Source: an uncultured Eubacteriales bacterium (lineage in GTDB: Bacteria; Bacillota; Clostridia; Christensenellales; Aristaeellaceae). From it: a DNA stretch of 64,000 nt. The notes below the pieces were generated by a model. That model did no database searches, was not told where the DNA came from, and saw only the letters and a program-made list of their open reading frames with translations. Within the stretch, counting starts at the first letter, position 1. Each line of letters begins with the position of its first letter. Positions 5,445 through 9,983 of this stretch are shown one piece after another. Location of the stretch: positions 1 to 64,000 of the forward strand of contig CADBCY010000001.1 of the NCBI GenBank assembly GCA_902793325.1. The letters run 5' to 3'. Position numbers and translations under genes: made by a program.

Positions 5445-7712
5445 CTATCCTTCCCGCGCGTCCCCGGCGAGGTCGGGGTGCGCGAGCAGCGCGGCCTTCA
5501 GGCCCGGCGCGTCCAGGTGGTTGTACACGTAGGCCCGGCGGCGCAGGGCGTCGGGGACGAACGCGTCGTTGCGGTCCAGCGCGGCGGCGGGGGCGGCGGA
5601 CACCAGCGCCTCCGGCTCCAGCGCCTCCAGGCAGGCCCTCAGCCCCTCCAGGAAGCGCTTCTTCGGCAGCAGCGTCTCCACCAGCAGCGCCGTGCGGTCG
5701 CCCGCGGGCTTGACGGTCTGCACCGCCAGCCGGTTCGAGAAGCGGCCGCGCAGCAGCCAGGCCAGCGTGTCCAGCTTGCGCGTGCCCAGCCAGGGGTGCA
5801 GCAGCAGCCGCCCGTAGCCCAGCGGGGTGAACAGGCGGTCGAGCTCGTAGGTGCGCGCGGTCGCCCGGGCCTCCGCCAGCGCCCGCTTCGCGGCGGGGTG
5901 GAGGTAGGGGTATTCCGCGTCCGAGGCGAGGATATCCCGCAGCTTCGCCACGATCCGGTCGTGCACGCGCGCGCCGCCGCCCTGCCAGCCGCCGACGGAT
6001 TCCCCGCCGCCGCCCTGGCCCACGTACACCGCGCCGCGGGCCTCGTCCACGCCGGTGACCTGCCACACCCGGCCCGCCATGGTGAAGCTCTCGCCCACCC
6101 GCGGCAGGGCGTCGATGCTGCCGATCTCCCGGCCGCCCGCGATCACCCGGCAGCCGCCGCTGTCCTGGAACACCGACAGGAAGCGGTAGTCCCCCGCCAG
6201 GCGCTCGCCCTTCAGCCCGGGCAGCAGCGTGCCGGTCTCCGTCACCTCCACCAGGTCCTCGTCCAGCATATGCCGCAGCAGGGCCATGTAGTCCTCCGCC
6301 GGGATCTTCGCGAAGGCGGGCAGGGTGTGCACCGCCTTCGCCAGCGCGCGCGAGGTGCGCTCGCCGGCCATCAGCGCGGAGAGCAGTTGCTGCACCAGCA
6401 GGCTGTAGGGCAGGGGCTTTTCCTCGAAGGGCTCCACCCAGCGCTCCTCCAGGTACAGCTGCACCACCGCCACGGTGCGCAGCAGCTCCCAGGGAAGGTT
6501 GTCGAAGGGCGTGTCGCCCCGCCGCCGGGCGCGGGTCAGGAAGCGCATCACCGCGGGCTGGCCGCGCCGACCCGAGCGCCCGAGGCGCTGCACGAACCCG
6601 GCGCAGCTGTCCGCCGCGCCCAGCTGCACCACGCGGTCCAGCCTGCCGAGGTCGATGCCCAGCTCCAGCGTGCGCGTGGCCACCGCCGTCGCGGGGCCCT
6701 CGGCGGCCTTCATGGCCTCCTCCGCGTCCTGGCGGATGGCGGCGGACAGGCTGCCGTGGTGGGCGTGGAAGGCGTCCGGTTCACCCCGGCGCGCCGCCTC
6801 CGCGCGCAGCGCCGCCACCACGCTCTCGGTCTCCGCGCGGCTGTTGGTGAACACCAGGCAGCGGCGTCCCCGGACCAGTGCGTAGAGGTCCGCGTACAGG
6901 TCCTCCCGGCCGGGGACGGGGATCTCTTCCGCCGCCTCCGGCGCATCGTCCGCGGGCTTCCACGGCAGGATCCGGTCGAGGAGGGAGGGCTTCTTTGCCT
7001 CGTCCGGCGCCGGGTCGACGGCGTAGTTCTGCAGCGCCAGGTCGAGTTTGCGCCCGGATTCCCGGCTCTCCACCACGGCGGTCTCCCGGTCCGTGCCCGC
7101 GGAGAGCCACGCCTGCGCGGCGGCGTAGTCGGACACGGTGGCCGACAGGCCCACGCGCCGCGCGCCGCCTGGGGTCAGGCGGTCGATCCGGCACAGCTGG
7201 CACTGTAGCTGCAGCCCCCTGTCCGTGCCCATGAAGGCGTGCACCTCGTCGATCACGACGAACCGGAGCGCGCCGAACAGCCGCGCCGCCGTGCCGGGCT
7301 GGCGCATCAGCAGGCCCTCCAGCGCCTCGGGAGTGATCTGCAGCACCCCGCGCGGGTCGCGCTTCGCCCGCTTCTTCTCCGACTCCGGCCGGTCGCCGTG
7401 CCAGGCGTATACGGGGATGTCCGCTTCCTCCATGAGCGCGTCCAGGCGCTCGAACTGGTCGTTGATGAGCGCCTTCAGCGGGCCGATGTACAGCGCGCCG
7501 AAGCCGTCCGCGTCCGCCTGCGCCAGCCTCGTCAGGATGGGGAAGAAGGCTGCCTCCGTCTTGCCCGAGGCCGTGCCCGCGGCGATGAGCACGTGGTCGT
7601 CCCCGTCCAGGATCGCGTCGATGGCCCGCTCCTGCACGTCCCGCAGCGACGTCCAGCCGTGGTCGAACACGTACTCCCGGATGAATGGGGCCAGCCGGTC
7701 GTAGCCGCTCAC
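5445..7712 (-). CDS. Lhr/BrxHI-like DEAD/DEAH-box helicase
   Basis: Superfamily 2 helicase of 755 aa. Motifs in order: Walker A AAGTASGKTEAAFFP near residue 45, DEVH in VVIDEVHAFMG, and motif VI RLGRSGRRGQ. A Lhr-like C-terminal half follows. The start is a GTG at 7712 that overlaps the stop of the upstream ATPase gene (GTGA), so the two proteins are translationally coupled. The pairing of a BrxD-like ATPase with a Lhr-type helicase is the pairing known as brxD-brxHI in type 2 BREX defence loci. The other BREX genes (PglW, PglX, PglY, PglZ) are absent here. The most probable roles are DNA or RNA remodelling in defence or repair; which one cannot be told from sequence. Confidence 0.82.
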   Translation of the reverse strand: MSGYDRLAPFIREYVFDHGWTSLRDVQERAIDAILDGDDHVLIAAGTASGKTEAAFFPILTRLAQADADGFGALYIGPLKALINDQFERLDALMEEADIPVYAWHGDRPESEKKRAKRDPRGVLQITPEALEGLLMRQPGTAARLFGALRFVVIDEVHAFMGTDRGLQLQCQLCRIDRLTPGGARRVGLSATVSDYAAAQAWLSAGTDRETAVVESRESGRKLDLALQNYAVDPAPDEAKKPSLLDRILPWKPADDAPEAAEEIPVPGREDLYADLYALVRGRRCLVFTNSRAETESVVAALRAEAARRGEPDAFHAHHGSLSAAIRQDAEEAMKAAEGPATAVATRTLELGIDLGRLDRVVQLGAADSCAGFVQRLGRSGRRGQPAVMRFLTRARRRGDTPFDNLPWELLRTVAVVQLYLEERWVEPFEEKPLPYSLLVQQLLSALMAGERTSRALAKAVHTLPAFAKIPAEDYMALLRHMLDEDLVEVTETGTLLPGLKGERLAGDYRFLSVFQDSGGCRVIAGGREIGSIDALPRVGESFTMAGRVWQVTGVDEARGAVYVGQGGGGESVGGWQGGGARVHDRIVAKLRDILASDAEYPYLHPAAKRALAEARATARTYELDRLFTPLGYGRLLLHPWLGTRKLDTLAWLLRGRFSNRLAVQTVKPAGDRTALLVETLLPKKRFLEGLRACLEALEPEALVSAAPAAALDRNDAFVPDALRRRAYVYNHLDAPGLKAALLAHPDLAGDAREG

Positions 7713-9025
7713 AGGTCGTACACCGCCAGGCTGTCGTCGGCGGCGTCGGGGTCGTCCGCCGCGCCGCGCAGCGGCACCTGGGGCGAGCCCACCAGATCCT
7801 CGAAGCGGGCCTCGGGGTTCTGGAGCAGCAGGTTCATCAGGGCGATGAAGTCGCGCGTCACCTCGCGGGGCGTCAGCAGCGCGTCCGCGCCGATGCGCTC
7901 GGACACCTTCTGCATGAACGCCGCCAGCTGCTCCGCGCTCAGTATGGGTTCCTCCAGCCCGTGGTGGGCGCAGAACACGTCCATCAGCCGCTCCAGCAGC
8001 AGGAAGATCTCCTCGGGGGTCAGCGACTCCAGCCGCAGGATGGGCCCGGAATAGTCCGCCATGCCCTCCGGCAGCAGCGCGCTGCCCCGCAGCCTGGACT
8101 TGAGCGCGTCGTAGCTGAACAGCCCGCGCCGCTCGTCCTCCACGCTCTGGGGCGTGCCGCCCAGGTACAGCCCCAGCCACGGCGCGCGGCCCTGCATGAT
8201 GTCGTTGAACATCGCCAGCAGCTTTTCGTAGTTGTTCTCCCGGCTCACGCGGTTGGTGATCTTGTACAGGTTCACGGTCTCGTCGATGAGCACCAGCAGC
8301 CCGCGGTAGCCCAGTTGGCTGGCCAGCCGCGCCAGCAGCTTCACCGCGTCGTACCAGTTGTCGTCGGTGATGATCTGCCCCACGCCCAGCGGCTTGGCGT
8401 CGGCCTTCTTTTCGTATTCGCCCCGCAGCCAGCGCAGCGCGCGGCCCATGCCCTCGTCGTCCGCGGCGCGGTAGCCCTCCCAGTAGGCCAGCAGCACCCG
8501 GGCGAAGTCGTAGCCGAACACGAATTCCCGCAGCTCCCCGGCGGTGGCGCGGATGGCGGCGCTGACGGCGTCCCCGTCGGAGCCCTCGCCCAGGTCGCGG
8601 CAGATGTCGTTGATCCAGCGCTGCAGCAGGCTCTCCAGCGCGCCGCCCTCGGGCCGGGTCTTGGTGGACAGGCTGGCCATCAGCTCCCGGTACAGCTTGA
8701 GCCCCTGCCCCTTCGTGCCCGCGAGCCGGCGCTCGGGGGTCAGGTCGGCGTTCATCACCAGGTAGCCCCGCTCCATGGCGTTGTTCCGCGCCAGTTGCAG
8801 CAGGAAGCTCTTGCCGCTGCCGTAGCGGCCCTCGATGAGCCGGAACGCGCCGCCGCCGCCGGCGATGTCCTCCAGGTCGGACAGTATGGCCTCGATCTCG
8901 GCCCTGCGGCCCACGGCGATGTACTCCAGCCCGATGCCGGGTACCACGCCCGCGCCCATGGACTTCAGTATCGCCGTGGAGCAGCGGCGGGGGATCTTCG
9001 GAATGACGTGCACAGTGTTTTCCAT
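7709..9025 (-). CDS. BrxD-like P-loop ATPase (DUF2791 type)
   Basis: ATPase of 438 aa resembling the BREX protein BrxD. The Walker A GRYGSGKS covers residues 67-73 and a Walker B reads LLVLIDE before TVNLYK. A downstream segment with GGTPQSVEDERRG and a C-terminal helical lid follows the family pattern. A GGGAGG site lies 7 nt before the ATG. It opens a two-gene operon with the Lhr-like helicase. Its 5' region carries three tandem repeats, each with a minus-strand extended -10 element. Function unknown outside BREX; an ATP-driven loader or regulator for the helicase is my inference. Confidence 0.8.
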   Translation of the reverse strand: MENTVHVIPKIPRRCSTAILKSMGAGVVPGIGLEYIAVGRRAEIEAILSDLEDIAGGGGAFRLIEGRYGSGKSFLLQLARNNAMERGYLVMNADLTPERRLAGTKGQGLKLYRELMASLSTKTRPEGGALESLLQRWINDICRDLGEGSDGDAVSAAIRATAGELREFVFGYDFARVLLAYWEGYRAADDEGMGRALRWLRGEYEKKADAKPLGVGQIITDDNWYDAVKLLARLASQLGYRGLLVLIDETVNLYKITNRVSRENNYEKLLAMFNDIMQGRAPWLGLYLGGTPQSVEDERRGLFSYDALKSRLRGSALLPEGMADYSGPILRLESLTPEEIFLLLERLMDVFCAHHGLEEPILSAEQLAAFMQKVSERIGADALLTPREVTRDFIALMNLLLQNPEARFEDLVGSPQVPLRGAADDPDAADDSLAVYDL

Positions 9026-9062
9026 GGGGGTGCCTCCCTTTGGTAGAATGGAATCCGAATAT

Positions 9063-9147
9063 GATTGTCGGCGCGCTGCGCAACTCGCTTTGCTCCCTTG
9101 CGCGCCGACCCGGAAAACCTTCGGTTTTCCTAATCATATTATACCAC
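9063..9147 (-). repeat. Tandem promoter-hairpin repeat, unit 1
   Basis: An 85-bp unit next to the BrxD-like gene. On the minus strand it reads TGGTATAAT (TATAAT at 9143-9138), then hairpin GGAAAACCGAAGGTTTTCC, then a 10-bp stem GTCGGCGCGC/GCGCGCCGAC closing a 23-nt loop. It abuts unit 2 without spacer. Confidence 0.85.
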
Positions 9148-9230
9148 GATTGTCGGCGCGCTGCGCAACTCGCTTTGCTCCCTTGCGCGCCGACCCGGAA
9201 AACCTTCGGTTTTCCTAATCATTATACCAC
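9148..9230 (-). repeat. Tandem promoter-hairpin repeat, unit 2
   Basis: An 83-bp unit identical to unit 1 except for 2 nt missing next to the -10 region (TATAAT at 9226-9221). Both hairpins are preserved exactly. Confidence 0.85.
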
Positions 9231-9322
9231 GATTGTCGGCGCGCTGCGCAACTCGCTTTGCTCCCTTGCGCGCCGACCCGGAAAACCGCGCTTCGCGCCA
9301 ATTTTCCTAATCATTATACCAC
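9231..9322 (-). repeat. Tandem promoter-hairpin repeat, unit 3
   Basis: A 92-bp unit with TATAAT at 9318-9313. The small hairpin is enlarged by GCGC-TTC-GCGC inserted in the loop, so the stem is kept although the sequence changed. It is the unit farthest from the gene and so the first transcribed. Confidence 0.85.
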
Positions 9323-9326
9323 AAAT

Positions 9327-9340
9327 TTCCCGCGCGGGAA
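9327..9340. promoter_or_regulatory. 14-bp palindrome at the -35 position of repeat unit 3
   Basis: TTCCCGCGCGGGAA is a perfect palindrome located 8 nt upstream of the first TATAAT box. It is a candidate operator for the BrxD/helicase operon. No matching regulator is identified. Confidence 0.4.
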
Positions 9341-9341
9341 G

Positions 9342-9377
9342 AAAAAAGGGGACGAACGCGAAAATTCCGTTCGTCCC
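9342..9377 (-). terminator. Rho-independent terminator of the membrane exporter gene
   Basis: A 10-bp stem GGGACGAACG/CGTTCGTCCC (9377-9368 and 9358-9349) with a 9-nt loop, followed on the minus strand by C and six T (9347-9342). It insulates the repeat-driven operon from the upstream gene. Confidence 0.88.
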
Positions 9378-9413
9378 GGTGAATGATCCGGCAGGGGAGG
9401 CCCGGCCCGCGAC

Positions 9414-9983
9414 TCATCTCACGATGGCCGTCACGCCCGTCGCGGCCAGGGTCATGATCAGGCACGCGGTGGCGTTTCCGAGCAGGATCGCCGCGGCGCT
9501 CTTGCCGCGGGGCATGTTGAACAGCGTGGCGATGGCGCTGCCCGTCCACACGCCGGTGCCCGGCAGGGGCAGGGCCACGAACAGGTACAACCCGAAGAGC
9601 TCCGCCGTTTCCGCGGAGAAGTAGCGCCGGATGCCCTTCCTGCGATTCCGCTTCATGGCGCGGCGCTTTTTGGCGGTGTGGCGCTCCAGCCACGCGGCGA
9701 AGGCGCGCACCGGCTTGATGGGCAGCGTGTAGAACCAGTCCAGCACCGGCCGCAGCAGCAGCAGTATGAAGGGCACCGGGATGCTGCTGCATACCAGCGC
9801 CAGCAGGTAGGCGAACGCCGCGGGCAGGCCCATGCCGATGGCCACCGCCACGGCGTAGCGGCCCTCGAAGGTGGGCACCATGCTCAGCAGCGCGGCGGTG
9901 ACGATGCGCGCGGTGTCGGGCCGGGCGGCGACTTCCCCGGCGGCGGTCATCAGGGGGGCGAGGCGAAGCAGGTTTCGGGTCAT
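9414..9983 (-). CDS. Small multidrug export family membrane protein
   Basis: A 189-aa membrane protein resembling the small multi-drug export family (COG2426, Sm_multidrug_ex). It shows the stretch LSMVPTFEGRYAVAVAIGMG near the N-terminus, several hydrophobic helices, a basic loop (TAKKRRAMKRNRRKG) and LPLPGTGVWTGSAIATLF near residue 150. Actual drug export has rarely been shown for this family. The ATG at 9983 is preferred because GGAGG stands 6 nt before it; an ATG at 9989 touches that site. Monocistronic, with its own terminator. Confidence 0.75.
   Translation of the reverse strand: MTRNLLRLAPLMTAAGEVAARPDTARIVTAALLSMVPTFEGRYAVAVAIGMGLPAAFAYLLALVCSSIPVPFILLLLRPVLDWFYTLPIKPVRAFAAWLERHTAKKRRAMKRNRRKGIRRYFSAETAELFGLYLFVALPLPGTGVWTGSAIATLFNMPRGKSAAAILLGNATACLIMTLAATGVTAIVR

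Follow-up and report, generated by a model that had tools for sequence, protein, structure and literature searches.

The array and its neighbouring genes

The window, the whole stretch of 64,000 nucleotides that was analysed, carries on its minus strand, at 5445–9025, two adjacent genes with similarity to SngB and SngC from the Shango defence system. The first of these was described in the original prediction as BrxD-like; a match to the BrxC/BrxD family is indeed present, but SngB of Shango is matched far better. No SngA was found among 13 neighbouring frames given to PADLOC. The gene in front of the pair matches a small multidrug export family. At 9063–9322, upstream of the SngB-like gene, three units lie head to tail on the minus strand, each with a TATAAT box and two hairpins, their sequence and spacing being as originally described. 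The features are listed below, where bit scores are those of R1, a covariance model made from 12 units.

5445–7712, minus strand: SngC-like helicase, the next gene after the SngB-like gene and in the same direction (PADLOC SngC, E 1.4e-223)
7709–9025, minus strand: SngB-like (Shango) ATPase of the BrxC/BrxD family (PADLOC SngB, E 4.9e-161, BrxD, 4e-40; Pfam BrxC_BrxD, E 1.5e-141)
9062–9136, minus strand: unit core C (R1, 41.6 bits); end helix 9132–9136 with 9062–9066, hairpin 1 9112–9130, hairpin 2 9067–9109
9138–9143, minus strand: third TATAAT, in the spacer of cores B and C; its distance from the core exceeds that of the other boxes by 2 nt (read from the sequence)
9147–9221, minus strand: unit core B (R1, 39.6 bits); end helix 9217–9221 with 9147–9151, hairpin 1 9197–9215, hairpin 2 9152–9194
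9221–9226, minus strand: second TATAAT, between cores A and B (read from the sequence)
9230–9313, minus strand: unit core A, first in the gene sense (R1, 52.8 bits; a row in alignments A3 and A4); end helix 9309–9313 with 9230–9234, hairpin 1 9280–9307, hairpin 2 9235–9277 (limits by eye)
9313–9318, minus strand: first -10 box, TATAAT (TGGTATAAT; read from the sequence)

Tandem Repeats Finder reports a period of 85 with 2.7 copies and 98% matches at 9063–9287. On the minus strand, the order within a unit is TATAAT, GATTAGG, a small hairpin, GG, a longer hairpin and GACAATC(A/G), with GATTAGG sitting 2 nt later in the last unit of the array. The structured core of each unit runs from TGATT to AATC(A/G), and the TATAAT boxes are located ahead of the first core and within the 8–10 nt between cores. 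A third helix, missed in the original prediction, pairs the two ends of each core (TGATT with AATCA in the window units). The small hairpin of core A, noted then as altered yet still pairing, does pair when inspected by eye; it is longer, changed and contains two G.U pairs. Folded as RNA, the 310-nt region of the array is 6.1 standard deviations better than its own shuffles. The array ends 36 nt before the ATG of the SngB-like gene (at 9025), and its first TATAAT would, by analogy with the empty yicC and tkt sites described below, be the original host promoter box. No Rfam 15 family matches at E ≤ 1 in 8900–9500, which rules out a known Rfam RNA as the identity of the unit and agrees with the earlier statement that no element of such form has been described.

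Copies in the same genome

A BLAST search with the array against this genome gives 32 matches, the array itself included. Model R1 finds 59 units at E ≤ 0.001, and two more were added by hand (C29:36858, and C2:136398 with 23.9 bits), giving 61 units in 30 arrays of one to four units each. Random scatter of many copies elsewhere in the genome had been named beforehand as an observation against a dedicated cassette; the many copies exist, but they are not placed at random, as most sit behind -10 boxes. A perfect TATAAT is located directly ahead of 22 of the 30 arrays, in keeping with the promoter box that was originally made part of the unit, and one with a single mismatch ahead of two more, while random 12-mers of the same loci contain a perfect TATAAT in 0.14% of cases and one with a mismatch in 0.6%. 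One further array (L025) is behind a -10 box by eye.

Genes were called with our own caller, with a codon-position filter against antisense open frames. A same-strand start codon is present 7–164 nt downstream of 29 of the 30 arrays, and for the thirtieth, where the caller had taken a spurious short frame, a same-strand start was found by eye. Seventeen arrays have neighbouring genes that both run the same way, and every one of these arrays is oriented with them; none of the 30 was called between convergent genes. This strict orientation could come from selection after insertion. The genes behind the arrays, named by eye, include yicC, transketolase, hisZ, yhbY, acylphosphatase, acetyltransferases and a Y-family polymerase, among others, and have no evident common function. 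Three copies (L028:449-673, L026:3086-3233 and L013:2726-2800) start at a stop codon inside apparent operons, with no TATAAT in front and with the hairpins kept. Another array (L020:3031-3085, on C50) contains a run of N, so that array lengths may be understated in this assembly.

The proposed link to brxD-like genes did not hold, since only one of the 30 arrays precedes such a gene. Of the 28 genomes of the genus, only this one and G164 gave a match to the SngB-like gene, and the repeat is absent from the 330 nt upstream both of the G164 copy and of a paralogue with 50% identity that this genome carries (L279). With these two genes and the 30 arrays before unrelated genes, an element specific to brxD or Shango was rejected.

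Distribution in relatives

In a BLAST search with two window units as queries, 22 of the 24 other species searched in the genus proved to have copies, and none of 16 genomes from other families of the order did. With R1, at least 15 of 150 genomes and at least 7 of 50 genera of the family contain the element, and with a broader model, R2, at least 6 of 396 genomes of the order do, including G299, a genome of another family, with one copy; both scans undercount, the family scan because of stricter filters and the order scan because 12 candidates were scored per genome. The single copy in G299 (L321) has the same architecture, with an end helix that appears to be GAATT/AATTC. An exact 24-base junction pattern is present in 19 genome_contigs stretches, all from assemblies of uncultured Clostridiales or Clostridia, with a ruminant gut sample (roe deer, goat) named for two. 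A phage origin was rejected, one 24-base junction pattern having no exact match in viral_contigs. In G002, seven copies (L218, L219, L221–L224 and L227) lie inside a larger intergenic repeat of about 250 bp that contains further shared modules.

Predicted fold and covariation

One strand of the unit is predicted to fold as a closed three-way junction, made up of the end helix P1 (TGATT/AATCA) and hairpins P2 and P3. That structure is under selection, as had been suggested from the altered hairpin, is borne out by covariation of both hairpins among 132 distinct units. Two-sided changes occur at 20 of the 28 proposed pairs in 88 distinct units from this genome and close relatives, and at 26 of 28 in the 132 units, which come from several genera. 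In this larger set, 96.9% of cells are paired, compared with 74.6% after shuffling and at most 55.4% in slid versions, in alignments (A3 and A4) whose fitting to the model tilts them in its favour. The end helix, which is also plain in raw, unaligned units, shows two-sided changes at all five of its pairs, with the outermost pair unpaired in 40 of the 132 units. Its versions include TGATT/AATCA in this genome, TGTTT/AAACA in G069, TGATG/CATCA and TGACG/CGTCA in G131, TAACG/CGTTA in G142 (L102), and CGATT/AATCG and AGATT/AATCT in G002.

A C-GNA-G loop closes hairpin 1 in 105 of 166 units; loops of this type are described as forming very stable DNA mini-hairpins (PMC4686876). When the units are folded singly, all three helices are present in the optimal structure of 86 of 132 units with DNA energies and of 24 with RNA energies (counted at 80% or more of the P1 pairs and 60% or more of the P2 and P3 pairs), and on the complementary strand in 84 and 22, respectively. 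Nearly all of this gap resides in the end helix, where 85% versus 24% of pairs form; hairpin 1 is slightly better as RNA than as DNA. Because the DNA energies reproduce the covarying fold more often, the predictions favour a fold at the DNA level, with energy sets that differ in their multiloop and loop penalties. Compared with shuffles, three sequences folded singly as DNA are 3.2 to 5.2 standard deviations better and four folded as RNA 1.6 to 5.1, the value for one unit of this genome as RNA being just 1.6. At paired positions, 54 G.U combinations are found versus 34 of their A.C mirror images, an excess that leans weakly towards RNA.

Empty and filled sites

The yicC gene is present in all 28 genomes of the genus, and its promoter is empty in 24 and filled in four. 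All 24 empty sites have an uninterrupted promoter with TGnTATAAT, and in the four filled ones (this genome, G000, and G016, G019 and G186) the element begins 0–1 nt behind the same -10 box, the first copy being truncated in G000. When the close pair G010 (empty) and G016 (filled) are compared, they differ, besides point differences, by one 63-nt unit and 8 nt: the filled site reads TGGTATAA[TGATT...AATCA]TGGTATAA, the empty one TGGTATAA. In a tree of the yicC gene (one gene, no branch support), the four filled species are not sisters and each is placed among empty ones, which amounts to four gains if losses are not invoked. With what look like four independent hits within a single genus, the yicC promoter provides a ready natural experiment.

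Of 19 genomes with a close tkt orthologue, 17 are empty, all with TGnTATAAT, and two (G000 and G019) contain two units each behind TGnTATAAT; this comparison left out seven genomes with distant homologues (33–38% identity) and two without a homologue. In front of hisZ, one of 26 genomes is filled, behind the distal of two promoters, and by eye 16 of the 25 unfilled genomes have a TATAAT at roughly the same position. In the filled hisZ site the host -10 box is kept, with no TATAAT behind the far end. G002 also has, upstream of its distal hisZ promoter, a palindrome (L336), both ends of which resemble the right end of the element (TGATTGTCGGGG...CCCCGACAATCA) and which is perhaps a derivative of it. 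In the gap between obgE and yhbY, compared in 26 genomes, G000 has three sense units without TATAAT and G014 one antisense unit, so -10 boxes are preferred rather than required. Insertion of a dispersed, structured element behind -10 boxes is thus documented, and the first TATAAT at yicC and tkt, judged from the aligned sites, is that of the host promoter and older than the insertion.

Ends of the element, target duplication and growth of arrays

In G016, eleven loci of a near-identical subfamily (L235–L245) have no TATAAT directly at either end. The mobile part is therefore taken to be TGATT...AATCA, and TATAAT as part of the element itself was set aside. Most of these loci have a common left flank like TTGGCTTGTGCA, and the few that were read closely seem to have the end of a gene of the opposite strand on one side and a terminator-like hairpin on the other. 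Candidate ends of the element are TGATTAGG and CGACAATCA, and recent copies are present in G016 and G069.

Of 98 arrays in eight genomes, 61 start behind a -10 box with up to one mismatch and 37 do not, L025 being counted among the latter because its BLAST interval already includes the box seen by eye. TATAAT is found again at the right end of 36 of the 61. A perfect 8-bp direct repeat flanks four of 30 single-unit copies behind a -10 box, and eight of 53 promoter-type arrays against none of 43 others; a clean 8-bp target duplication at all copies was thus not found. Left and right 8-mers agree at 4.83 of 8 positions in promoter-type arrays versus 4.43 when shuffled (p 0.001), and at 2.51 versus 2.14 in non-promoter arrays (p 0.028). 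From this genome, 19 arrays were typed as promoter type and four as non-promoter, leaving out L020, L025, L027 and L090–L093. Alignment A4, the 8-mer comparison and the 98-array count leave out L233 and L239–L244 of G016 and L219, L221–L224 and L227 of G002, 13 loci that resemble the included ones and of which L233 is the sole one at a -10 box. Nine right ends were flagged for antisense -10 boxes (one mismatch at most); eight are, by eye, sense TATAAT or ATATAA read against a near-palindrome, and the ninth (L211) reads TATGATTAT.

Arrays hold near-identical units and also quite different ones (L010, L011, L012 and L215). The former suggest duplication, and the presence of unlike units within one array suggests repeated insertion as well.

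Nature of the unit and alternative explanations

Our preferred reading, which we consider probable, is that the unit is a non-autonomous, non-coding mobile DNA repeat of the MITE/REP kind, with a core of about 60–85 nt, inserted directly 3' of existing -10 boxes. If instead it were a functional promoter and structured-RNA cassette, a leader element or small RNA kept to regulate the gene behind it, the strong covariation, the sense orientation before start codons and the slight excess of G.U over A.C would be expected, as would the loosely Shine-Dalgarno-like stretch that 11 arrays without a -10 box have at most 16 nt from their right end. Most orthologous promoters are empty, though (24 of 28 for yicC, 17 of 19 for tkt, 25 of 26 for hisZ), and the genes behind the units share no evident function. 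In addition, in copies behind a -10 box the 5' arm of the end helix is located at about -7 to -3, so RNA started at the unit's own -10 box would lack it, and yet the helix covaries, which is better explained by a role in DNA or in read-through RNA; the cassette is on balance unlikely.

Spread by slippage and gene conversion alone between TATAAT promoters, as for a minisatellite with no transposition-like step, would account for units within an array being often near-identical and locus-specific, and for spacers that often copy the left flank, odd insertions included (L215, L027). Against it stand single units at new loci, such as yicC of G016, where no flanking homology to other loci is seen beyond the -10 box, and the many near-identical copies of G016 at non-promoter sites, and we regard it as very unlikely. 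Still more improbable is a regulon in which the palindrome AATCAT-N6-ATGATT across unit junctions would serve a dedicated repressor as its operator, overlying the -10 box, the hairpins being secondary. The palindrome or a near version of it is present at many junctions by eye and its arms covary; single-unit copies, on the other hand, carry just half a palindrome at each end, the targets are unrelated and differ between species, and the covarying hairpins are left unexplained.

Relation to known repeats

Correia elements of Neisseria and BrickBuilt elements of Porphyromonas gingivalis are described as short, dispersed, intergenic MITEs that can bring promoter sequences, BrickBuilt having tandem repeats inside and being discussed as a possible putative mobile promoter (PMC10969869, PMC4596501). 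The present element is likewise short, dispersed and intergenic and can bring promoter sequences; it differs in its end repeats of about 5 bp, its two internal covarying hairpins, its usual position directly behind an existing -10 box in one orientation, and a target duplication that is not general. Both its dispersal and its inverted, covarying ends (TGATT/AATCA) are those of a MITE, with 5-bp repeats that are shorter than usual for this class. BOX elements of Streptococcus pneumoniae are reported as dispersed, intergenic and probably parasitic, with variable tandem modules and a predicted RNA fold (PMC3049150). Dispersed intergenic positions, a variable number of tandem modules and a predicted RNA fold are shared, but BOX repeats the inner boxB alone between boxA and boxC, while here whole units are repeated, usually linked by TATAAT, and by eye no separate end modules in a boxA-boxB(n)-boxC order are present in the arrays.

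REP and REPIN sequences are described as hairpin repeats that are non-autonomous and, as single-stranded DNA or as RNA, able to fold (PMC3733652, PMC8049555), with REPs mainly downstream of genes and an unpaired GTAG or CGTC tag beside the hairpin (PMC3733652). Our element is also a non-autonomous hairpin repeat, but it is located before genes, and no Y1 (RAYT) transposase match was found in this genome. In units of this genome hairpin 1 is preceded by TTAGG and hairpin 2 by GGGTC, the GTAG/CGTC tag not being present unpaired by eye; units of G131 and G142 read CCGTC at the latter place, partly paired. Given the dispersal and inverted ends of a MITE and the lack of a RAYT match here, the element is filed with MITE/REP-type repeats. 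The position directly behind a -10 box is an unusual target choice for a mobile element, and none inserting there is announced in the titles and opening abstracts of the open-access literature searched.

Proposed insertion mechanism

On the preferred reading of a mobile repeat, copies have inserted directly 3' of the -10 hexamer of pre-existing promoters, in one orientation and with the host box intact, often leaving a second TATAAT at the far end (seen at yicC and tkt, not at hisZ). As the unit sequences suggest, this regenerated TATAAT could be hit again, or be duplicated with the unit, giving arrays of like and unlike units. The spacing of a -10 box to its start site puts the RNA start at about the start of hairpin 1, and from this spacing the gene's mRNA would begin within about 1 nt of hairpin 1, while an array would line up several -10 boxes one behind the other. 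Hairpins at the 5' end act as stabilisers of mRNA. We infer folded single-stranded DNA as the moving form, as we do any effect on expression. A mobile element preferring -10 boxes would rewire the starts of genes whose promoters it leaves in place, and might reveal how transcription steers insertion; for a family of mostly uncultured gut bacteria, it also provides a structured repeat for typing and testing.

A strict orientation behind the -10 box is expected if one particular strand is used, and the element might, as a doubtful though possible route, move as a folded single DNA strand into the non-template strand of the RNA polymerase transcription bubble at the -10 box. If true, this would explain the -10 target, the orientation with transcription and the DNA-favoured fold with its GNA mini-hairpin loops; it would also explain the end helix, which a transcript of that promoter would be unable to form. 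Spread by Y1/RAYT transposases was rejected, as Pfam Y1_Tnp (PF01797) has no match in this genome (95% complete) and none in the copy-rich G019, G020, G021 and G024 either. Such transposases are present in 16 of the 28 genomes of the genus, and in G018 (L112, on C53) a broken Y1 transposase gene neighbours a copy and seems to have been inserted into the beginning of a second unit.
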